Origin: Candidatus Methanoplasma sp.
Lineage (GTDB): Archaea; Thermoplasmatota; Thermoplasmata; Methanomassiliicoccales; Methanomethylophilaceae
Assembly: GCA_031256955.1 (NCBI GenBank)
Contig: JAIRPP010000016.1
Location: 124,001-188,000, forward strand
Length of the DNA stretch: 64,000 nucleotides
Direction: 5' to 3'
This document shows positions 941 to 14,429 of this stretch, piece after piece; position 1 is the stretch's first letter; each line of letters begins with the position of its first letter. The position numbers were made by a program, and so were the translations under genes. The notes beneath the pieces were generated by a model. It saw nothing but the letters and a program-made list of their open reading frames with translations. It searched no databases and was not told the origin of the DNA.

Positions 941-2281
941 TCAGAACCTGTACCCGGAGCGGTCGGGGAATATGAACGCGGCCGCGTACAGGGGGTAGCG
1001 CTCCACCCCCCTCTCGTCGGATGAGACGCCGTCTCCCCCCAGGAGGATGCCCCTGGGAACCCCGTAGACCCCCGACATCGCCCTCTCCAGCGACTTGGAC
1101 TCCATGCCCTTCCCTGATTTCACCTCGATCGCCGCTACGCCGGGCCCCATGCCGATCACGAAGTCCACCTCCATGTCCCTGTTCTTGCCCTTCTTCTCGA
1201 AGTACGTCGGCTCTATGCCGCGCCTGCCTATCTCGGATGCGACGAAGTTCTCCGCGACTGCCCCCAGGTTCGCATGGGCCTCCCCCTCGACTATGGCGAC
1301 GGCGAGCCCGTCGTCGAGCATGGACGCCAGCAGCCCCGGGTCCCACATGAACAGCTTGAAGACGCTGAACCTCTTGTTCAGAGCCAGGGGCTGGGTCGGC
1401 GCGTCGAGGTTGAGGCATCTGAACACTATCCCCGCGTCGACCAGCCATTCGAGCCCGCTCCCGTACATCCTAGACCCGACGTTCGCCTTCCCGTCGACCC
1501 CGCTGTACCTGAACCTCCCGCCGAGCTGCTCCGGCACGGACCTCAGGCACGCCCTGGCCTTGTCCTTGTCGCTGTATCTGGCGTATTTCGCTATGTCGTC
1601 CATGTAGCCGGAGACTATCTTCCTCTGTATGGCCAGGACCTTCCCCAGGTCGCGATGCCTCGCGAACGAATCGACCGCGTCCGGCATCCCCCCGACAACC
1701 AGGTACAGCCTTAGCATCCTGGACATCTCCTCGGCCGCGAACGCGGAGAGGGGCTTCTTCCCGCGGAGATCGGAGGCTATGCTGGAGACGGATTCCTCGG
1801 GTGTCCCCATCGCCCATAGGAACTCCTCGAAATCCAGCGAATGCATGTCTATCGCCTCCTCGTAGCCGACGGGGTACGAGGACACCTCCCTGTAGTTCAG
1901 CCCCATCAGGGATCCCGACGCGATCACGTCGAACCTGCCGTCCAGCGAGAAGGACTTCAGGGCGGTCCTGGCTCCGGGGCAGCTCTGTATCTCGTCGAGG
2001 AAGATCAGGGTCTTTTTAGGCAATAGGGGGACGTCGCGGAACCTGAGCGTGATCTCCGTCACCAGGGTGTCTATGTCCAGGTCCCCCTCGAAGATCCTCT
2101 TCAGCCTGGGGGAGATCTCGAAATTGATGTAGATGTAGTGAGGATAGGTCTTCGCGAACTCGTTCACGATGTACGTCTTCCCCACCTGCCTCGCGCCCTT
2201 TATCAGGAGGCATTTCTTCTCGGGATTGTCCTTCCATTTGAGAAGCTCTGACATCATTTTTCTCTTGAGCACGTTAGTCAT
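941..2281 (-). CDS. AAA (AAA_14) ATPase with DUF4143 C-terminal domain
   Basis: Walker A LIKGARQVGKTYIV, Walker B LIFLDEIQ, VIASGSLMGL motif, C-terminal nuclease-like VDFVIGMGPGVAAIEVKSG. Confidence 0.9.
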   Translation of the reverse strand: MTNVLKRKMMSELLKWKDNPEKKCLLIKGARQVGKTYIVNEFAKTYPHYIYINFEISPRLKRIFEGDLDIDTLVTEITLRFRDVPLLPKKTLIFLDEIQSCPGARTALKSFSLDGRFDVIASGSLMGLNYREVSSYPVGYEEAIDMHSLDFEEFLWAMGTPEESVSSIASDLRGKKPLSAFAAEEMSRMLRLYLVVGGMPDAVDSFARHRDLGKVLAIQRKIVSGYMDDIAKYARYSDKDKARACLRSVPEQLGGRFRYSGVDGKANVGSRMYGSGLEWLVDAGIVFRCLNLDAPTQPLALNKRFSVFKLFMWDPGLLASMLDDGLAVAIVEGEAHANLGAVAENFVASEIGRRGIEPTYFEKKGKNRDMEVDFVIGMGPGVAAIEVKSGKGMESKSLERAMSGVYGVPRGILLGGDGVSSDERGVERYPLYAAAFIFPDRSGYRF

Positions 2282-2786: not shown

Positions 2787-3485
2787 TCATCCGCGCCCCC
2801 TCGCCATCGCGAGCCTCGGCATGTCCCCGCACACGGCCACCGACCCGTCCATCATCGCCAGGCACCCTATGACTCCGCCGATCCCGCAGACCTCCTCCGC
2901 CGCGCCCTTCAGATCCGACGGGCTCGATATCATGTTCCCCAGCCTGGTGGCGCACGCGTCCGCCAGCACGGGGTCCCCCGAGAACACGGCGGACAGGTCC
3001 GAGTTCCCCAGGGACACGGAGCGCCCCACCCTCCCCGACGAGGAGCACAGCCCCATTATCCTCCCGCCCGTGGCGGGAACCGCGAACGCCGCGTCGTCCA
3101 TGGAATCGTCGCCCGAGTATATCCTCACGATCGCCTCGCGGCTCGTCATGAGCGCGACGTCGCCCCCGTTGTCTATCACCGCGTGCGAGCACCCCTCCTC
3201 CGCGAGCCTCTCCGCCACGTGCGACGCGACCGCGCCCGCGACGGCCGCCATGGGGCCCACGCCGGCGGCGACGGACGCGGCGCACATCCTGCGTATCAGG
3301 GGCCTGTCCCCCCTCGCTGGCTCGCATGGGTGGAAGGTCAGCCCGAAGAAGGGATCGGCGTCGATCTTCTCCCTCACGATCGATCTCGCCTCCCTGACCG
3401 CGGACACGGCCGCCTGCCTGAACCTCGGCTCGGCGGACAATGCCAGCTCCGTCTCCCCTATGTGGATGTGCATGCGCTCGGTCAT
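2787..3485 (-). CDS. UPF0280 family protein (COG2122)
   Basis: Full-length ORF MTERMHIHIGETELALSAEPRF... with ASVAAGVGPMAAVAGAVASHVAE and VIDNGGDVAL motifs. Confidence 0.85.
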   Translation of the reverse strand: MTERMHIHIGETELALSAEPRFRQAAVSAVREARSIVREKIDADPFFGLTFHPCEPARGDRPLIRRMCAASVAAGVGPMAAVAGAVASHVAERLAEEGCSHAVIDNGGDVALMTSREAIVRIYSGDDSMDDAAFAVPATGGRIMGLCSSSGRVGRSVSLGNSDLSAVFSGDPVLADACATRLGNMISSPSDLKGAAEEVCGIGGVIGCLAMMDGSVAVCGDMPRLAMARGRG

Positions 3486-4594
3486 ATGGCCCCCGCCAGC
3501 CTGTCGCGGATCTCCCTCGCCGAAAGGGGTATGTTGGGGGAATCGGAGTTATGCGGCCTTATCAGGGCCTGTATGAAAGACGGCCCGCGCCCGCGCGCCT
3601 CCCTCACCGCCCTCTCCACTCCCTCCGCGTCCGAGACGGACGCGGTCGCCCCTATCCCGCAGGCCAGCGCCATCGCCTCCGTGTCCGACGTCAGGTATGC
3701 GGGGGTCTCCTGGTTCCCGGTGGACCCGAACGCGCCGTTGTCCAGGCACAGTATCGTCAGGTTGCGGGGCTTCGCGGCCGCGATCACCGGCAGTATCGAC
3801 GACCCCAGGACGCTCCCGTCCCCGTCTATGACCAGCACGCGCCTCTCCGTGGACAGCGCCAGCCCCAGCCCTATGGGCGAAGCCTGGGTGTAGCTCCCGA
3901 GCATGTAGAAGTTCAGATCGCGGTCGCGGGCCGCGAAGGCCTCTTTCGACGGCACCCCTATGTTAGATACGACCGCGTCGCCGTCGCCTATCCCGCGCAT
4001 GGCCGCGCCTATGGCCTCCAGCCTTGTCATCGAGGGCGGGGAGACCCTCTTCTCCAGGCGGACCGAGACGGCGCGCGACCTCTCCGGGAGCGCGGGCCCC
4101 CCCTCGGGCTGCTCCCCCCAGAACCCCGGGCGTATCAGCGCGACGGCGACTGACCCCTCTTCGAAGGCGGATCGGACCACGCCCCTGATCTTCCACGCGT
4201 CCCGGGGGCCCCTCACGTCCTCGTGCGCTATGCCCAGCGCGTCCAGCATCCTCGGCAGCCTCAGGTTGAACGGCTTCTGCGCCTCTATCGGCTCCCCGTC
4301 CACGCCCCTCCAGCTGGCCAGTACGGGCAGCGGGAGCCCGTACAGCGACGTCAGGGACATGAGGGCGTTTGCCATGTTCCCCAGGCCCGAGCTCTGTATG
4401 GACATGGCGGGCCTCCTCCCGCCCAGGGACGCGCCCGCGCACACCCCCACCCCGTCCTCCTCCCGCACGAGGTCCACGACCTCGAACCTCCCGCGCATCT
4501 CCGCCGTGAACCCCCTGTTGCGGTCGCACGGGAGGCTTGCTATCAAATCCACGCCCTCCGACCTCAGGATCTCCGCCACCAGCTCCTCATTCAT
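3482..4594 (-). CDS. comDE: Sulfopyruvate decarboxylase, fused alpha/beta subunits (coenzyme M biosynthesis)
   Basis: TPP-enzyme architecture; VREEDGVGVCAGASLGGRRPAMSIQSSGLGNMANALMSL (ComD) followed by VIDGDGSVLGSSILPVIAAAKPRNLTILCLDNGAFGSTGNQ (ComE). Confidence 0.88.
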   Translation of the reverse strand: MNEELVAEILRSEGVDLIASLPCDRNRGFTAEMRGRFEVVDLVREEDGVGVCAGASLGGRRPAMSIQSSGLGNMANALMSLTSLYGLPLPVLASWRGVDGEPIEAQKPFNLRLPRMLDALGIAHEDVRGPRDAWKIRGVVRSAFEEGSVAVALIRPGFWGEQPEGGPALPERSRAVSVRLEKRVSPPSMTRLEAIGAAMRGIGDGDAVVSNIGVPSKEAFAARDRDLNFYMLGSYTQASPIGLGLALSTERRVLVIDGDGSVLGSSILPVIAAAKPRNLTILCLDNGAFGSTGNQETPAYLTSDTEAMALACGIGATASVSDAEGVERAVREARGRGPSFIQALIRPHNSDSPNIPLSAREIRDRLAGAI

Positions 4595-5834
4595 TCAGAA
4601 TCCTCCTCATCTCCTCGTCCGTCTCTCCCCCGCCGAGCCTCGCCTCCGGCTTTATCTTGACTAGGTCCAGATCCTCCTCCGCGCGGTCCGCCCCGCCGCC
4701 GGTCAGGTTCAGGAACACGCGCTCCCCCTCCGATATCCCGCCGTCCCCCGCCGCGCGGATCAGGGACGCCAGCGCGACGCAGGCGGCCGGGTCCAGAGAC
4801 GCGGACTCCATGGAGGACCACAGCTTCCCGGCGGACCTCGCCTCGGCCTCGGACACCCCGTAGAACCTGCCCCCGCACGCCGACATTGCGTCGAACACCC
4901 CTCCCGCCGCCCCGTACGGGGGCCTGCGGTTGGCCAGCACGTCGGCGTACGCCCCGCCCGCGCCCGGGGTCTCCAGGTCCTCTCCGGAGATCTCCCTGCG
5001 CCCCGCCTCCCACGCCCTCTTCATCGGCGCGAAGGACAGGTTCTGCGACAGGTCCAGCTCAGGGAGCCTGTCCCCGAAGCGGCCGTCCCCTATGAGCCTC
5101 ATGGACGCCTCCCATGCGGATATCGCGCCCGTGCCGCTCCCGACGGCCTGGAAATAGCGGTCCGGCAGCCGGCCCATCGCCAGCGCCCCCTCCAGGAGGA
5201 CCGTCCCCATGCCGTCCCTCCGGGCGACGTTCCTCGCGCCGCCCTCCGGGATGAGGCCCCCCGCCGAAGCCGCCCTCTCGGCCATGCGGATCGCGTCCGC
5301 GTAGTCGCCCCTGACCTCGAACAGCCTGGCATAGCCGCCGTCCCCGGTGGCCCTCACCCTCCCGGCGGAGCCTTCCGGGACGAATATGACGCATCTGCGC
5401 CCGGTCTCCCCCGAGACCTGGGCGAACGCCCGCGCCGTGTTGCCGGCGGACGCGAGCGCGACGGTCCCGCCCCCGAGGTCCCCTATGCGGGAGTACGTGG
5501 GGAGGGCCTCCAGCTCCTTGAACGAGCAGGACTTCGCGAAGGCGCCCCTCTCGGGATGGTATCCCGTGAACCCTATCCACAGGTCCCTCACCCCCAGCTC
5601 CCTGGACAGGCGCTCGCTGCGGAACGCGACCGGGGACGCGTCGGTACCGATCACAGAGCGGACCGGGAGCCAGTCGTAGAACCTGTACATCCCCGGCATG
5701 TCCCTGACGGCCAGCCTCGCGGCCCTGTACTCGGTTCTCATCAGCCCTCTCCCGAGGGGCGGGGGGTCGCGCAGGATCCCCGCGCAGTCTCCCGCGAGCT
5801 CCCCTCCGGGGAGCCTCAGCGCGTATTCGCCCAT
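4587..5834 (-). CDS. Cysteate synthase (threonine synthase-like PLP enzyme)
   Basis: FAKSCSFKELEALPTYSRIGDLGGGTVALASAGNTARAFA; next to comDE; ATGA overlap with upstream gene places start at 5834. Confidence 0.82.
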   Translation of the reverse strand: MGEYALRLPGGELAGDCAGILRDPPPLGRGLMRTEYRAARLAVRDMPGMYRFYDWLPVRSVIGTDASPVAFRSERLSRELGVRDLWIGFTGYHPERGAFAKSCSFKELEALPTYSRIGDLGGGTVALASAGNTARAFAQVSGETGRRCVIFVPEGSAGRVRATGDGGYARLFEVRGDYADAIRMAERAASAGGLIPEGGARNVARRDGMGTVLLEGALAMGRLPDRYFQAVGSGTGAISAWEASMRLIGDGRFGDRLPELDLSQNLSFAPMKRAWEAGRREISGEDLETPGAGGAYADVLANRRPPYGAAGGVFDAMSACGGRFYGVSEAEARSAGKLWSSMESASLDPAACVALASLIRAAGDGGISEGERVFLNLTGGGADRAEEDLDLVKIKPEARLGGGETDEEMRRILNE

Positions 5835-7078
5835 CAGAGCGCCCTCAGGTTCCAGTCCCCCTGCTCTACCCTCCTCTTGAGGATCTCGCACAGCTCCTCG
5901 CCCTTCTTGCGGGACGACTGCCTGAGGGTTATGGGGATCTCCCTCCCCTCGTGCGTCACGCTCCCCATGCTGATGGAGAACACCCCTCCCGGGCACCTCG
6001 ACGCGCAGTACCCGCACGACATGCAGAGAGATCCGTCGATCCCCCCGCCGTAGGAGACTGCGCCCGTCGGGCACGATTCCTCGGCCTCGCACTCCCTGCA
6101 CCCTATGCACTTCCCCCGGTCTGCGGCCACGTCCCTGTCGGTGCCCCTCCACACCGACGAGTAGTCCCCCTTGGACCTCACGGCCCGGTCGTGTGCGTCC
6201 GCCATGGGGAGGGGGGAGCCCTCGTCCAGCACGGACAGGTCGTCGAAGGCCTTCTGGTCGGTCACCGGGATGGCGAACGCCACCGACGTGAGGCACTCGG
6301 GGCCCTCCGAGGTCCTGAACCCGCCCATGTACTCGGGCATCATCCCCTCCAGGTCCGCCGCCACGGAGAGGTTGGGCTTGTGCGCCCCGCTCCGCGACCC
6401 CGTCCCTATGACTATGCCCGGGGCGCCGTTCAGCAGGACGGACGCTCCCGGGCGTATGTACCTCATGTCGGGGTCGTTCTGCAGCGGGTTGATCTCCCCG
6501 CAGCCGCTGACCGTGGCCTCCGACATGGATCCCCCTATCCCGCCCCTGGCGGAGAAGATGGTGTCGTAGCTCTCCTCGGACTCGTTGAAGAAGCACGTGT
6601 AGTTCTTGAACGCCCCCCTGGTGAGCACCATCCTGGCGAACACCAGGTCCTTCTTGGTCACGCGGCTCTCGAAGACCCTCCCCTCGGCCCACACCCTCAC
6701 CTCTATGGAGTCCCCCCTGGCTATGTCTCTGAACAGATGGCCTCCGCCGTACCCGTCGTCCCTGTGGGCGGTGCCGTTCACGATGCAGTCCACCACCCCG
6801 AGGGATTCGTTGGGGCACGGCCCGACGGTCCCGGGGACCCCGTTCAGCTCTATGCGGTCCGCCTTCTTGAACTCGGGCGGGGACGAGACCGGCACGGTCA
6901 GTATCATCATGGTCCCCGACATGACCCCGAACGTGCCGCACGTCACCGCGTCCACGTCGCCTGGGCCTATCGGGTCCCCCCTGCGTATCATCTCCTTGAA
7001 CTCGGACGCGGTGTACACCCTGGCCCTCCCCTCGGAGATCCTTCCCTGTATTTCGTCTATGTCCGTCACGGCTCTCAC
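5834..7078 (-). CDS. Methanogenesis marker 16 / DUF39 (COG1900) thiol-forming enzyme fused to 2x[4Fe-4S] ferredoxin
   Basis: TCGTFGVMSGTMMILTVPVSSPPEFKKADRIELNGVP...; C-terminal CIGCRECEAEESCPTGAV and CMSCGYCASRCPGGVF; GTG start. Confidence 0.85.
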   Translation of the reverse strand: MRAVTDIDEIQGRISEGRARVYTASEFKEMIRRGDPIGPGDVDAVTCGTFGVMSGTMMILTVPVSSPPEFKKADRIELNGVPGTVGPCPNESLGVVDCIVNGTAHRDDGYGGGHLFRDIARGDSIEVRVWAEGRVFESRVTKKDLVFARMVLTRGAFKNYTCFFNESEESYDTIFSARGGIGGSMSEATVSGCGEINPLQNDPDMRYIRPGASVLLNGAPGIVIGTGSRSGAHKPNLSVAADLEGMMPEYMGGFRTSEGPECLTSVAFAIPVTDQKAFDDLSVLDEGSPLPMADAHDRAVRSKGDYSSVWRGTDRDVAADRGKCIGCRECEAEESCPTGAVSYGGGIDGSLCMSCGYCASRCPGGVFSISMGSVTHEGREIPITLRQSSRKKGEELCEILKRRVEQGDWNLRAL

Positions 7079-7082
7079 CAGG

Positions 7083-7727
7083 TCACAGTATGATTATGTC
7101 CTCTATGCGTATCTGGAGCCCCCAGGGCTTCTTCATCACCATGTTCACCAGGCCCGTGTGGGCCCTGTCCAGCATGCACAGGCCCGGGAGGAAGGTGAAC
7201 CTCTCCCCGAACCTGGGCTCCTCGGTTATGGGCAGGGCCCTGCCCTCGAACCCCAGCATGTGGTACGCCTTGACGTCCTTCACCTCCCTGTCGCGGGAAT
7301 AGGCGGGGCCCACCACGTGGCCCGTTATGACCCCGGTGTCCGCGTCCGCGTCGAGGACGCGGAGCACGTGCTGCACCGGGCACCCCGCCCCCGCCGGGCG
7401 CCCCACCACTATGTCCCCCCTGGAGATGCCCCACCTCTCGACGAGGTCGGGCCTGAACGGCAGGACTATCTTCCTGGCGGACGGCTCCCCGGGCATCGGC
7501 TGCACCACGAAGGAGTACTTCTGCCCGACCACGTCGGATCCGCTGTACCTCTGCATCAGGCTGATCCCCTGCGCCGCGGTCTTGGCCGAGAAGAACGGGC
7601 AGGCGTCCCTGCTCAGGGACCCGTCCCCGACCGCCGCGGCGAACTCGCCGCACGTGCCGCGCCCGCACGCCCCGCAGTCCCTCCCGGGGGGAGACCACTC
7701 ACTCTCCGCGGTAGACGTTGTCGGCAT
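7083..7727 (-). CDS. Fe-S cluster protein with ACS/CODH gamma-like N-terminal [4Fe-4S] motif
   Basis: CGACGRGTCGEFAAAVGDGSLSRDACPFF cysteine motif; conserved operon position. Confidence 0.7.
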   Translation of the reverse strand: MPTTSTAESEWSPPGRDCGACGRGTCGEFAAAVGDGSLSRDACPFFSAKTAAQGISLMQRYSGSDVVGQKYSFVVQPMPGEPSARKIVLPFRPDLVERWGISRGDIVVGRPAGAGCPVQHVLRVLDADADTGVITGHVVGPAYSRDREVKDVKAYHMLGFEGRALPITEEPRFGERFTFLPGLCMLDRAHTGLVNMVMKKPWGLQIRIEDIIIL

Positions 7728-8412
7728 CCTCTATCCTCCTTATCACGCCGAAGTGGCTCTGCCACCCTATGTCCTTCTTGCCTATGCACACGGTGCACAC
7801 CCCCAGCGGGGGCGAGCCCCTGAGCTCCGCCGCGGGCGAGTCCTCCGCCGCCCCGGCGGAATCCATCAGGCGGTAGAGGTGCCTCAGGCCCGTGCCCTGG
7901 ACCGCGTTGGTCTCCACGATGTCCATCTCGGGGGACACCCTGCGGATGGACTCCCTGAACACCTCCTTCTCCGCCTGCGATATGAGGTCCGTCTTGGTGA
8001 CTATGCACGCGTCGGACAGGGCTATCATCGGCGCCATCTTCAGCGGCGCGCGGGTCCCGGACAGGGCGGACACGACGCATATCCCCAGGGAGCCCGTTAT
8101 GTACGGGGTGCACCTGAGGCACAGCCCCGCGCTCTCCAGTATCAGGACGTCTGCGCCCTCGCCCTCCGCCCAATCGATGGCGTCGCGCACGACCATGATC
8201 CCCATGTGGTCCGGGCACAGGTCCCCGGAGTACACCTTCTTCGTCGGTATCCCGAACTCCGCCCTCAGCTCCTCGTCCTCGAAGGCTGCCACCACGTCTA
8301 TCTTCAGATAGGCGGCCTTCGCGCGCCCGCCCAGGTGCCTTATCATGTTCTTTATCACGGCGGTCTTGCCCGCGCTGGGCGGGCCCGCCACCACCATCAG
8401 CCTGACGCTCAC
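7699..8412 (-). CDS. CobW/HypB/UreG-like P-loop GTPase
   Basis: GPPSAGKTAVIKNMI Walker A, CVVSALSGTRAP, TKTDL; GTG start overlapping TGA of 8409-9191. Confidence 0.75.
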   Translation of the reverse strand: MSVRLMVVAGPPSAGKTAVIKNMIRHLGGRAKAAYLKIDVVAAFEDEELRAEFGIPTKKVYSGDLCPDHMGIMVVRDAIDWAEGEGADVLILESAGLCLRCTPYITGSLGICVVSALSGTRAPLKMAPMIALSDACIVTKTDLISQAEKEVFRESIRRVSPEMDIVETNAVQGTGLRHLYRLMDSAGAAEDSPAAELRGSPPLGVCTVCIGKKDIGWQSHFGVIRRIEDADNVYRGE

Positions 8413-9191
8413 AGCGCCCCGCCCCCCGTTATGACCTCTCCCGCCCTGATCCTCTCGCGCACGCGGGAGAGGGCCTCGTCCATCCCGCGGACGGACGCCA
8501 GCGCCTCCCTCTCCGAATCCCGCGGCCTGAGGACGGATTCCACCCTCCCGTCCCTCATGACTATCCTGCGGTCCGATATCATGGACACGTAGGGGTCGTG
8601 GGTGACGAATATGACCGCCCTCTCCAGGCTCCTGAGCGTGGCTATGACCGCGTCCCTGAAGATCCCGGCGTTCTCTATCTCGTCCAGGAGGAGTATGGGC
8701 GCGTCGGAGATGGCCACCGCGTCCGCGATCATCAGCGAGCGGGTCTGCCCCCCCGACAGGGAGGACATCTTGAAGCGGGCGTCTATCTTCTCGCCCGTGA
8801 ACCCGTTGGCCAGATCGAGGGCCCTCTCGGCCATGCCCTCGCCCGCGCTGCCCCTTATGCTGGCGTGCATGTCCAGGAACTCCCGTACGGTCAGGTCGGC
8901 GAGGCACTTGGTGTTCTGGGTTATCATCGCCACGGGCTTGCGCGCGGGGTCTCTGGAAAACTCGTCCGGAGGCGCCTCCCCGTTGAAATCGATCCTGCGC
9001 CCGGTGACCGTGTCGCCCTGCGCGAAGACCTCTATGTCGTTTATGAAAGCGGTTTTGCCCGATCCCGTCGGGCCGACGATGGAGATCGTGTCTCCGGGGT
9101 TTATGTCGATTGGGTCGAAATTCTCTAGCTCTCCGCCCTTGGAGGTCCCTGGATGGACCGTGATCGTGATCTTCGCGTTCCGCTCGATCAT
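8409..9191 (-). CDS. ABC-type ATPase (stand-alone)
   Basis: GPTGSGKTAFIND Walker A, LSGGQTRSLMIADA signature, ILLLDEIENAG Walker B; ATG at 9191 (alternative 9224). Confidence 0.8.
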   Translation of the reverse strand: MIERNAKITITVHPGTSKGGELENFDPIDINPGDTISIVGPTGSGKTAFINDIEVFAQGDTVTGRRIDFNGEAPPDEFSRDPARKPVAMITQNTKCLADLTVREFLDMHASIRGSAGEGMAERALDLANGFTGEKIDARFKMSSLSGGQTRSLMIADAVAISDAPILLLDEIENAGIFRDAVIATLRSLERAVIFVTHDPYVSMISDRRIVMRDGRVESVLRPRDSEREALASVRGMDEALSRVRERIRAGEVITGGGAL

Positions 9192-9559
9192 AGGGGGTCC
9201 GACGCGGGCTTGGTTATTATACATTTTGGATAATATTTCCTTAATAGGATAATAAATATTTTGAATGCCTATAATGTACCTCGCCCGCCGGGCCGAGAGA
9301 AGGGCGGGCGAGATGGGGGGAGGAGCGGGGATGCGAGCGGCCTCCCGCATGCGTTTTCGGATGAAAGTTCGGGATAGAGTTCGGGATAAGGTCGTCTCGA
9401 CCCGTCTCAGATGATCGCATCGCGCCTTCGAAGCGGACCTGTCCCTCCTCTCGAAAAACATGGCATAAGGAGGTAAGGGGTTTGGAGGAGGAAGCCGTTT
9501 CCGAGCGCATGGCGCGCCCGCCAGTGATCCTGCCGCGGCTCTCCCGAGCCGCCCGCGAA

Positions 9560-10679: not shown

Positions 10680-13600
10680 ATGAAGATGAAAGTCGTGTCC
10701 CTCTCCATCCGCACCTCCGACGCCAGGACCCTCGCGGAGCCCGCCAGGAGGCTCGAGGCCGACCTCGGCGTGGCCTGCGACCTCTACTGCGTCAACTGCG
10801 AGGACGCGGACGACGACATCCTGGTCTTCAGAGAGCTCGAGAGGAGGACCCTGGAGGCGGACTTCGTGTTCGTCAAGTGCATGTCCGACGCGTCCAGGTT
10901 CAACATGTTCGAGAGGTACGAGAAGGCCCTCGCCGGATGCAGGGGGTACGTGTTCCTGAACTCCGGGAGCCTGGAGGTCTCCACCATATACCGCCCCCTG
11001 TTCAAGGGGTCGGACGGGGACTTCGTCGCGCTCAGGGCGTTCGCGTCCAACAGGGGCCCGGAGAACGAGTACGGGATCCTGCGCTGGGCGGCGAAGGCCC
11101 TGGGGCTCACGTCGGAGCCCGTGCCTCGGCCAGTGGAGCAGAGGCAGGCGGGGATCTACCATCCCGGGTTCCCCAGGGACGTCGGGAGGGCGGAGTACAT
11201 GAAGTCGCTCGACCCGGGCAGGATATGCGCCGGCATCCTGTTCCCCAACAACCTGTGGCTGTACGGGAACACCGCCCACATAGACGCGCTGGTGGAGGCC
11301 CTGGACGCGGAGGGGGTGGACTCGATCCCCGTCTTCTTCTCCCTCGCGTCCTTCAGCGCGGAGGGGGTGGAGGGGACGAGGGCGTGCGTGAGGGAGCACT
11401 TCACCGACGGGGGCGGGCCGGTCATCGACGTCCTCATCGTCTGCTCCCCCTTCTCGCAGCTGATAAACTCCAGGTCCAAGCGCGGGATGCGCACCGAGGA
11501 CTCCGACAACTACTACCGCACCCTGCTCAACGTGCCCGTGATACAGGCGATGAGCGTCAGCGGGGACTACGCGGACTTCGAGAGCGACAAGATCGGGCTC
11601 GGGAAGCGCGACGTCTCCGCCAGCGTCGCGTGGCCCGAGATAGACGGGCAGATAATCTCCGTGCCCATATGCTCCACCCCCGGCGGGGGCGAGATGAAGC
11701 GCGCCTCCCCCATACCCGACAGGATAGGGCACCTGGCCCGCCTCGCCAGGGGGTGGGGGTCGCTCAGGCGCAAGCCCGTCGGCGAGCGCAGGGTCGCCAT
11801 ACTGCTCTACCAGCACAGGCCCGATTCGGGGAACATCGGCGGGGCGGCGGGGCTGGACGCGGTCGAGAGCGTGTCCGACATGCTCCGGAGGATGCATGAG
11901 GCGGGATACCGCGTGGAGGGGGTCCCGGGGTCCGGGAGGGAGCTGGTGGAGGAGATCCTGGACGGGGTGACCAACGACCTCGACTCCATGAGCGCGGGGA
12001 GGATGCGCGAGAAGGCGGCCGCGCTCGTCCCGCCCGGCGAGTACGCGGCGCGGTTCTCCGAGATACCGGAGTTCGACAGGGAGATGATGAGGGCGGAGTG
12101 GGGGGACCCTCCGGGGGAGATATGCGTGGACGGGGGGGACCTGGTGATACCGGGGCTGCTGAAGGGCAACGTCTTCATAGGGTACCAGCCGCTGAGGGGG
12201 TGGGGGGAGAGGATGGAGGGGGACTATCACGACCCCACCCTGTTCGCCCAGCACCAGTACCTCGCGTACTACAGATGGATAAGGGACTCCTTCAAGGCAG
12301 ACCTGGTCATGCACATAGGCACCCACGGCACTCTGGAGTGGCTCCCGGGGAAGAACGTGGGCCTGTCCGCGAAGTGCGACCCCGACGTGGTGCTGGACGG
12401 GATGCCGAACATCTACCCGTACATAATAGACGACCCGGGCGAGGGCGTACAGGCCAAGCGCAGGACCGAGTCCGTCCTCATAGGGCACATGTGCCCGACC
12501 ATGGCGCGGGCGGGGTCCTACGAGGAGCTGGACCGCGCCAACGTCCCGCTCCAGGAGTACTTCAGGTGCGCCGGGTCCGCGCCCGAGGAGAGGAGGCGCG
12601 AGCTGGCCTCGCAGATATACTCCGTCGCCAGGGAGCTGAGCCTCCTCAGCGACCTGGGGATCGAGGGGGACCCGGGGCCCGACGGGTTCGAGCCGTTCAT
12701 AGGCAGGCTGCACGACTATCTGACCGAGGTGAGGGACGCGATCATACGGTCCGACCTGCACGTGCTCGGGAGGCCTCCGAGCGGGAGGCACATGGACGAG
12801 GCGGTGTACTCCCTCACGCGGCTGGACAACGGAGAGGTCCCGTCGCTGCGCTATGCGTTCGCGGAGGGCATGGGCATCGATCTGAGGAGGATGCTGGACG
12901 ACCCGTCGGGGACCACCGGCGGGGAGGTCAACAGCGCGCTCGTCGACAAAGCGGACGGGGAGCTCCAGGCGTTCATCGGGAGGATGAGGGCGGCGGGGTA
13001 CGACAGGGAGGCGTGCATGAGGGACCTGAGGGAGAGGATCGGGGAGCCCTCCCGGGACCTGGAGGCCGCCGTGGCCTTCGCGTGCGACTCCCTCGCCCCG
13101 AACATAATGAGGATGGCGGACGAGATGGACCACGTCATGCTCGGGCTGGACGGCGGGTACGTCCCGCCGGGGCCGTCCGGCGCCCCCACCCGCGGGAACG
13201 CGGACATCCTGCCCATGGGCAGGAACTACTACGGCATCGATCCGGACTCGGTCCCCAGCCGCGCCTCCTGGGAGACCGGCAGGAAGATGGCGGACCAGAT
13301 GATAGAGAGGTACGTGGAGAAGATGGGGGAGCATCCGAGGGAGATCGGGTTCATCATCTGGGCCACGGACACCATGAAGACGGGCGGGGACGACGTGGCG
13401 TACGTCCTGTGGCTGATGGGGGCCAGGCCCGTATGGTCCAGGGAAGGCGGCCAGGTGATCGGGCTGGAGGCGGTGCCGCTGGGCGAGCTGGGGCGCCCGA
13501 GGGTCGACGTGACCGTGAACATAACCGGGCTGTTCAGGGACACGTTCCCGAACCTCATCGACCTGATAGACGACGCGGTGAAGCTCGTTTCGGGCCTCGA

Positions 13601-14429
13601 CGAGTCCGAGGAGGACAACGCCCTGGCGGCCAACCTCAGGAGGGACATAGTCGAGGGGATCGCAGGGGGGATCGGCGCGGAGGAGGCCAGGAGGAGGGGC
13701 TCCGTCCGCATATTCGGAGCCCCTCCGGGCGCCTACGGGACCGGGGTGAACAAGATGATCGAGTCGGGGGCGTGGAAGACCGTGAGCGACCTGGCCGACG
13801 TCTACATCGACTGGTGCTCCCACGGGTACGCCCGGGGGAGCTACGGGGACAGCCTGAGGGAGGAGTTCGTGAGGAGGTTCAGCAGGGTGGGGGCCACGGT
13901 CAAGAACATGCCCGACCGCGAGATAGACCTGCTGGACTGCGACGACGTCTACGAGTACCTGGGCGGGATGAACGCCTTCGTCCGCGCCTACGGGAGGAAG
14001 GACGCGATCTCCGTGATGGGCGACGGCTCGGACCCTAAGAGGCTCAAGATACGGGACGCGGCGGAGGAGCTCGGCTACGTCTTCAGGAGCAAGGTCCTGA
14101 ACCCGAAGTTCATCTCCGGGCTGAAGGAGCACGGGTACCGCGGGGCGGCGGAGCTGGCCAACATAGCGGAGTACGCCATGGCGTGGGACGCCACGTCGGG
14201 CATAGCGAGCGACTGGATGTACGAGGGCATGGCGGAGAGGTTCCTCTTCGACGAGGACACGCGGGAGTGGATGGAGGACGCCAACATACACGCGATGAAG
14301 AACATCCTCGACAGGCTGCACGAGGCCATCGAGCGCGGGCTGTGGGACGCGGACGCGGGCACGAGGGAGAGGCTCACGGGCCTCTACAGGGACGTGGAGG
14401 GCAGGATCGAGGAGGCGACCGACCGTTAA
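10680..14429 (+). CDS. cobN: Cobaltochelatase CobN / Mg-chelatase H-like large subunit
   Basis: 1249 aa; FAQHQYLAYYRWIRDSFKADLVMHIGTHGTLEWLPGKNVGLS; VTVNITGLFRDTFPNLIDLIDDAVKLV. Confidence 0.93.
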   Translation: MKMKVVSLSIRTSDARTLAEPARRLEADLGVACDLYCVNCEDADDDILVFRELERRTLEADFVFVKCMSDASRFNMFERYEKALAGCRGYVFLNSGSLEVSTIYRPLFKGSDGDFVALRAFASNRGPENEYGILRWAAKALGLTSEPVPRPVEQRQAGIYHPGFPRDVGRAEYMKSLDPGRICAGILFPNNLWLYGNTAHIDALVEALDAEGVDSIPVFFSLASFSAEGVEGTRACVREHFTDGGGPVIDVLIVCSPFSQLINSRSKRGMRTEDSDNYYRTLLNVPVIQAMSVSGDYADFESDKIGLGKRDVSASVAWPEIDGQIISVPICSTPGGGEMKRASPIPDRIGHLARLARGWGSLRRKPVGERRVAILLYQHRPDSGNIGGAAGLDAVESVSDMLRRMHEAGYRVEGVPGSGRELVEEILDGVTNDLDSMSAGRMREKAAALVPPGEYAARFSEIPEFDREMMRAEWGDPPGEICVDGGDLVIPGLLKGNVFIGYQPLRGWGERMEGDYHDPTLFAQHQYLAYYRWIRDSFKADLVMHIGTHGTLEWLPGKNVGLSAKCDPDVVLDGMPNIYPYIIDDPGEGVQAKRRTESVLIGHMCPTMARAGSYEELDRANVPLQEYFRCAGSAPEERRRELASQIYSVARELSLLSDLGIEGDPGPDGFEPFIGRLHDYLTEVRDAIIRSDLHVLGRPPSGRHMDEAVYSLTRLDNGEVPSLRYAFAEGMGIDLRRMLDDPSGTTGGEVNSALVDKADGELQAFIGRMRAAGYDREACMRDLRERIGEPSRDLEAAVAFACDSLAPNIMRMADEMDHVMLGLDGGYVPPGPSGAPTRGNADILPMGRNYYGIDPDSVPSRASWETGRKMADQMIERYVEKMGEHPREIGFIIWATDTMKTGGDDVAYVLWLMGARPVWSREGGQVIGLEAVPLGELGRPRVDVTVNITGLFRDTFPNLIDLIDDAVKLVSGLDESEEDNALAANLRRDIVEGIAGGIGAEEARRRGSVRIFGAPPGAYGTGVNKMIESGAWKTVSDLADVYIDWCSHGYARGSYGDSLREEFVRRFSRVGATVKNMPDREIDLLDCDDVYEYLGGMNAFVRAYGRKDAISVMGDGSDPKRLKIRDAAEELGYVFRSKVLNPKFISGLKEHGYRGAAELANIAEYAMAWDATSGIASDWMYEGMAERFLFDEDTREWMEDANIHAMKNILDRLHEAIERGLWDADAGTRERLTGLYRDVEGRIEEATDR

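Follow-up and report, generated by a model that had tools for sequence, protein, structure and literature searches.

A coenzyme M operon of Candidatus Methanoplasma that ends in a UPF0280 gene, and a candidate sulfur-delivery role for UPF0280 beside ComF

Coenzyme M synthesis, COG1900 enzymes and the Methanoplasma locus

The final step of coenzyme M (CoM) synthesis was disputed for years. Chadwick and colleagues deleted cs (cysteate synthase), comDE and the gene of methanogenesis marker 16 (MMP16) in Methanosarcina acetivorans (MA3297-MA3299); the MMP16 mutant grew poorly without CoM and was a CoM auxotroph without sulfide (PMC12068725). According to an earlier report, as cited in that paper, MJ1681 enables E. 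coli to convert sulfoacetaldehyde to CoM. In many lineages, MMP16, now called ComF, clusters with the sulfoacetaldehyde genes, and an ATPase, a GTPase and a COG2000 Fe-S protein are encoded nearby; which sulfur donor ComF uses, and how many electrons, is left undecided (PMC12068725). For M. acetivorans MMP16, the core cysteines C200 and C202 were published as dispensable. For the Methanomassiliicoccales, CoM synthesis by the cysteate route was inferred in 2014 (PMC4153887).

A related system, L-aspartate semialdehyde sulfurtransferase (L-ASST, MA1821-MA1822), combines a COG1900a protein with a separate NIL-ferredoxin and acts in homocysteine synthesis together with COG2122, or UPF0280 (MA1715, DvMF_0044). 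In M. acetivorans, for which no double mutant was obtained, L-ASST seems to compensate for the loss of MMP16 (PMC12068725). In Desulfovibrio, COG2122 is required for homocysteine synthesis and its fitness values correlate with those of DUF39 (r = 0.98; PMC5764234). MA1715 has been connected with the assimilation of sulfide into homocysteine and cysteine (PMC5764234; PMC9431491), and the MA1715 mutant of M. acetivorans, as reported in PMC5764234, was rescued at low sulfide by either cysteine or homocysteine. COG2122 is a distant relative of ApbE; a role in the persulfidation of SepCysS was also suggested (PMC5764234).

The window analysed here is a stretch of 64,000 nucleotides from Candidatus Methanoplasma sp. 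(GCA_031256955.1, contig JAIRPP010000016.1, positions 124,001 to 188,000). It contains four minus-strand genes in tandem, each of which touches or overlaps the next, namely MMP16, cysteate synthase, a fused comDE and UPF0280. The cluster extends upstream of MMP16, so that its order from 5' to 3' on the minus strand is ABC-type ATPase, CobW/HypB-type GTPase, Fe-S protein, MMP16, cysteate synthase, comDE and UPF0280. The features are as follows.

2787-3485, minus strand: UPF0280/COG2122, final gene of the operon (NF003324, 204 bits; PDB 2o34, E 3.5e-29)
3482-4594, minus strand: comDE, sulfopyruvate decarboxylase, two subunits fused, 370 aa (TIGR03845, 170 bits; TIGR03846, 212 bits)
4587-5834, minus strand: cysteate synthase, PLP-dependent (TIGR03844, 504 bits, cut-off 325; placed by start codons)
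5834-7078, minus strand: MMP16, predicted ComF, COG1900d (DUF39, HcyBio) with two C-terminal [4Fe-4S] motifs (TIGR03287, 489 bits; PF01837, 290 bits)
7083-7727, minus strand: Fe-S protein with a PF04060 domain, probably COG2000 (PF04060, 34.5 bits; conserved beside MMP16)
7699-8415, minus strand: CobW/HypB/UreG-type GTPase, start approximate (PF02492, 49 bits; TIGR00073 hypB, 67 bits, under its cut-off)
8409-9461, minus strand: ABC-type ATPase, with which the cluster probably begins; start codon at 9461 (ATG) or further downstream (PF00005, 59 bits)

The ATG of cysteate synthase shares one base with the stop codon of MMP16, and we therefore placed this gene at 4587-5834. Its overlap with comDE is 8 bases long, and that of comDE with UPF0280 is 4 bases long (ATGA). 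Because the junctions overlap or almost touch, joint transcription and coupled translation of the whole cluster are likely. The alpha part of ComDE scored above its cut-off (169.6 against 147.95 bits) and the beta part slightly below (212.1 against 221.5 bits). The ATPase and GTPase genes are conserved in related clusters. The original prediction had described a minus-strand operon of a DUF39 protein with two [4Fe-4S] motifs, cysteate synthase, comDE and UPF0280, and the curated-model scores and the junctions confirm it.

On both sides of this region, CobN/Mg-chelatase-like genes lie on the plus strand; the one at 10680-14429 is complete (PF02514, 1166 bits), and 1-907 is a C-terminal CobN-like piece that enters from the window edge and resembles the end of the complete gene. 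An AAA_14/DUF4143 ATPase, a member of an ordinary archaeal gene family, is encoded downstream of the operon (941-2281, minus strand).

The DUF39-ferredoxin protein scored 489.4 bits against TIGR03287 (methan_mark_16; cut-off 363.95) over profile positions 1-390 of 391. It consists of a COG1900 domain (PF01837) fused to Fer4 with two [4Fe-4S] motifs, and all eight cluster cysteines (residues 324-362) were invariant among 20 homologues. Among named organisms, the nearest relative is Candidatus Methanoplasma glyptotermitis, with 76% identity in MMP16; the contig scan with MMP16 otherwise gave only two Chloroflexi matches, which are due to chance and involve the ferredoxin part. As in the cluster MA3297-MA3299, the genes for sulfoacetaldehyde formation, cs and comDE, adjoin MMP16, which belongs to the same TIGR03287 family as MA3299 and MJ1681, and the ATPase, GTPase and probable COG2000 Fe-S protein are likewise at its side. 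Judged from its sequence, the protein is methanogenesis marker 16, the CoM synthase ComF, with an activity predicted from its orthologues. Thus the original prediction, that this protein forms CoM, agrees with the published work on orthologues (PMC12068725), but it is not new, and the step that it described as missing had already been assigned to ComF between 2019 and 2025. Unlike the M. acetivorans cluster, the operon of the window ends in UPF0280.

UPF0280 across the Methanomassiliicoccales

The UPF0280 protein matched NF003324 with an E value of 2.8e-60 over 232 aa; its score was under the equivalog cut-off of 275 bits, which only 33 of 148 genomes passed. The entry 2o34 is filed as 'Hypothetical protein'. 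Cys147, in the motif GxCSSS, was invariant (67/67, CoM-linked copies included), and the nearly invariant Cys68 and Cys178 were kept in CoM-linked and L-ASST-linked copies alike.

We surveyed 148 genomes of this one order, many of them incomplete (the window genome is 88% complete). The COG1900 type of partial matches was set by bits per position or by span, and a few may be misassigned. The genomes are related and the counts non-independent, and the p-values below, which ignore relatedness, are to be read as descriptions. UPF0280 was found in 107 of the 109 genomes that have a COG1900 enzyme, against 3 of the 39 that have none (Fisher, 1.8e-28, relatedness ignored). It was present in 87/89 genomes with L-ASST only, in 13/13 with both enzymes and in 7/7 with MMP16 only; among genomes without L-ASST, the last figure compares with 3/39 in those that also lack MMP16 (2.2e-6, relatedness ignored). 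Of these three exceptions, G071 has its UPF0280 next to comDE where a contig breaks off, and its MMP16 probably lies beyond the break; the remaining two genomes are 67% and 73% complete. Within the genus of the window, all four genomes with a COG1900 gene possessed UPF0280 and 12 of the 13 without one lacked it, G071 being the exception.

The position of the gene followed the enzymes present. In the seven genomes with MMP16 only, which belong to four genera, UPF0280 was always directly behind comDE, whereas in the 13 genomes with MMP16 and L-ASST it was always in the L-ASST operon; in G098 and G038 the order DUF39, NIL-ferredoxin (PF09383), UPF0280 was observed directly. G058, G059, G032, G039, G040 and G096 also have the order MMP16-cs-comDE-UPF0280, and the linkage is thus not confined to the window genome. 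A single UPF0280 family occurs in both kinds of operon, and this placement suggests one sulfur-delivery protein common to the CoM and homocysteine pathways.

Several observations concern loss of the pathway. In 12 of the 17 genomes of the window genus, some of them 99% complete, MMP16, ComD and cysteate synthase over cut-off and UPF0280 were all missing, and because of this these organisms are probably CoM auxotrophs. G126, a genome that is 99% complete, has ComD over cut-off (G126:C22:23652-24128) and neither MMP16 nor cysteate synthase over cut-off. The cysteate synthase gene of G056 contains one in-frame TAG (L075:1033-1035); both read-through and a pseudogene are possible, and pyrrolysine is known in Methanomassiliicoccales.

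The MMP16 proteins of the window's family formed one clade, and within it operons that carry UPF0280 were mixed with operons that lack it. UPF0280 is lacking from the MMP16 operons of G098, G043, G055 and G056. The contigs of G055 and G056 stop short of its expected position, and in G098 and G043 the sequence behind comDE showed no UPF0280 remnant. The CoM-linked UPF0280 proteins fell into two groups on the best tree, yet a single clade was not rejected (p-AU 0.18). Accordingly, UPF0280 either entered the operon repeatedly, or entered it a single time and later disappeared from it in those genomes whose L-ASST operon provided a copy. Under either history, the UPF0280 copies look interchangeable between the two COG1900 enzymes.

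These data also bear on whether UPF0280 is a mere passenger beside ComF, that is, a general sulfide-assimilation gene that by chance followed comDE in a single ancestor and has been inherited in this place. The CoM-linked cases all fall within one family and, as a single origin is compatible with the tree, may be traceable to one event. Further, MA1715 is not reported within the CoM cluster of M. acetivorans and is unlinked to MMP16, and from the account of its mutant in PMC5764234, in which cysteine or homocysteine sufficed for rescue, any need of MA1715 for CoM in that species must be partial; COG2122 is so not strictly needed for CoM there. However, a general gene would be expected also in genomes without a COG1900 gene, and UPF0280 was missing from 36 of 39 such genomes. 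The two groups on the best tree, and the position of the UPF0280-lacking operons of G098 and G043 inside the same MMP16 clade, also speak against a passenger. We consider the passenger explanation unlikely.

Homocysteine and other possible partners of UPF0280

The original prediction also allowed that the enzyme serves both substrates, so that a single COG1900 enzyme with UPF0280 would make CoM and homocysteine in the window genome. This genome has just one COG1900/DUF39 gene and one UPF0280 gene, which gives the DUF39 copy count that the prediction had called for; no L-ASST gene was found in it, though one could lie in the missing part of the genome. The apparent compensation for MMP16 loss by L-ASST in M. 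acetivorans would also fit one enzyme acting on both substrates. The L-ASST system and the window operon have in common a COG1900 enzyme, two [4Fe-4S] clusters and UPF0280.

In contrast, the ferredoxin is fused in the window protein and separate in L-ASST, and the window enzyme is linked to cs-comDE and not to the operon DUF39-NIL/ferredoxin-UPF0280. No NIL domain was found in the window MMP16 protein, and no separate NIL-ferredoxin gene was present among the identified genes of its cluster. The motif around Cys54 of L-ASST, GTFGAMCSSGAF, was kept in 6/6 aligned L-ASST proteins and is replaced by GTFGVMSGTMM in the window MMP16; its cysteine was equated with Cys54 of MA1821 by the motif, MA1821 itself being outside the alignment. 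An L-ASST protein from the same order scored 142 bits against TIGR03287, below the cut-off. Further, the window genome encodes an O-acetylhomoserine sulfhydrylase (611 bits) and thus has another source of homocysteine; the six other genomes with MMP16 only gave candidate matches similar to it in length and score. Since the essential-cysteine motif is missing and this sulfhydrylase is present, the window MMP16 is, on the evidence of its sequence, not the homocysteine enzyme. A dual role is not needed, and we regard it as very improbable.

The least probable explanation, to which we give hardly any weight, is that UPF0280 serves some other enzyme, for example SepCysS in cysteine synthesis, or is an ApbE-like flavin transferase: its distant relationship to ApbE and the suggested role in SepCysS persulfidation (PMC5764234) would accord with this, but SepCysS was over cut-off in 0 of the 148 genomes (best 51 bits, cut-off 365), which rejects it as the partner within Methanomassiliicoccales and has no bearing elsewhere.

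A second kind of MMP16 was observed at L084:7095-8375, L085:5726-7006, L104:5904-7178 and L105:5364-6644 (G135, G133, G016 and G127). These proteins are 59-69% identical among themselves and 44% identical to a com-linked MMP16, exceed the TIGR03287 cut-off where checked (444-459 bits) and have no neighbouring genes in common. Neither comDE nor cysteate synthase was over cut-off in G133 and G135. The second kind may act on a different substrate.

A proposed role for UPF0280 in coenzyme M synthesis

We propose that CoM is made here by the phosphoserine route with MMP16 as ComF, and that UPF0280 supplies the COG1900 enzyme that a genome has, here ComF, with sulfur derived from sulfide; we hold this to be probable. 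Cysteate synthase would make cysteate, which a general aminotransferase encoded elsewhere would convert to sulfopyruvate, and ComDE would decarboxylate sulfopyruvate to sulfoacetaldehyde. ComF would then exchange the aldehyde oxygen for a thiol, with its two fused [4Fe-4S] clusters as the source of electrons. UPF0280 would capture sulfide, or a persulfide made from sulfide, carry or activate the sulfur, possibly on the invariant Cys147, and pass it to the enzyme. Species with L-ASST would keep their single UPF0280 gene in the L-ASST operon, and species with MMP16 only, including that of the window, would keep it in the CoM operon.

The participation of UPF0280 in CoM formation, as stated in the original prediction, thus has good comparative support; the protein would be an accessory that carries sulfur for ComF and would not belong to the terminal enzyme itself. 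In MMP16, the core cysteine (Cys193 in the window) is nearly invariant and is replaced by Gly in G096 (L071), in which the CoM operon is otherwise the same and intact. This replacement would agree with the dispensable C200 and C202 of M. acetivorans if Cys193 is their counterpart, and would make a separate sulfur carrier more attractive. More generally, we lean towards UPF0280/COG2122 being a sulfur-delivery partner of COG1900 aldehyde sulfurtransferases, which ComF requires to make CoM efficiently when sulfide is low.

By text search of the accessible literature, we found no link of COG2122, UPF0280 or MA1715 to CoM. The main text of PMC12068725 has no COG2122/UPF0280 in CoM clusters and names MA1715 solely with L-ASST. 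As far as the accessible literature shows, the connection of UPF0280 to CoM is therefore new, and it is moderately well supported.

If UPF0280 feeds ComF, the question of the sulfur donor becomes testable with two proteins of one operon. The lineage of the window lacks SepCysS and, apparently, L-ASST; these two, known or suspected as partners, make the outcome in Methanosarcina hard to read. If the proposal is true, it would also connect the disappearance of CoM synthesis from many gut methanogens with that of a single sulfur-delivery gene.
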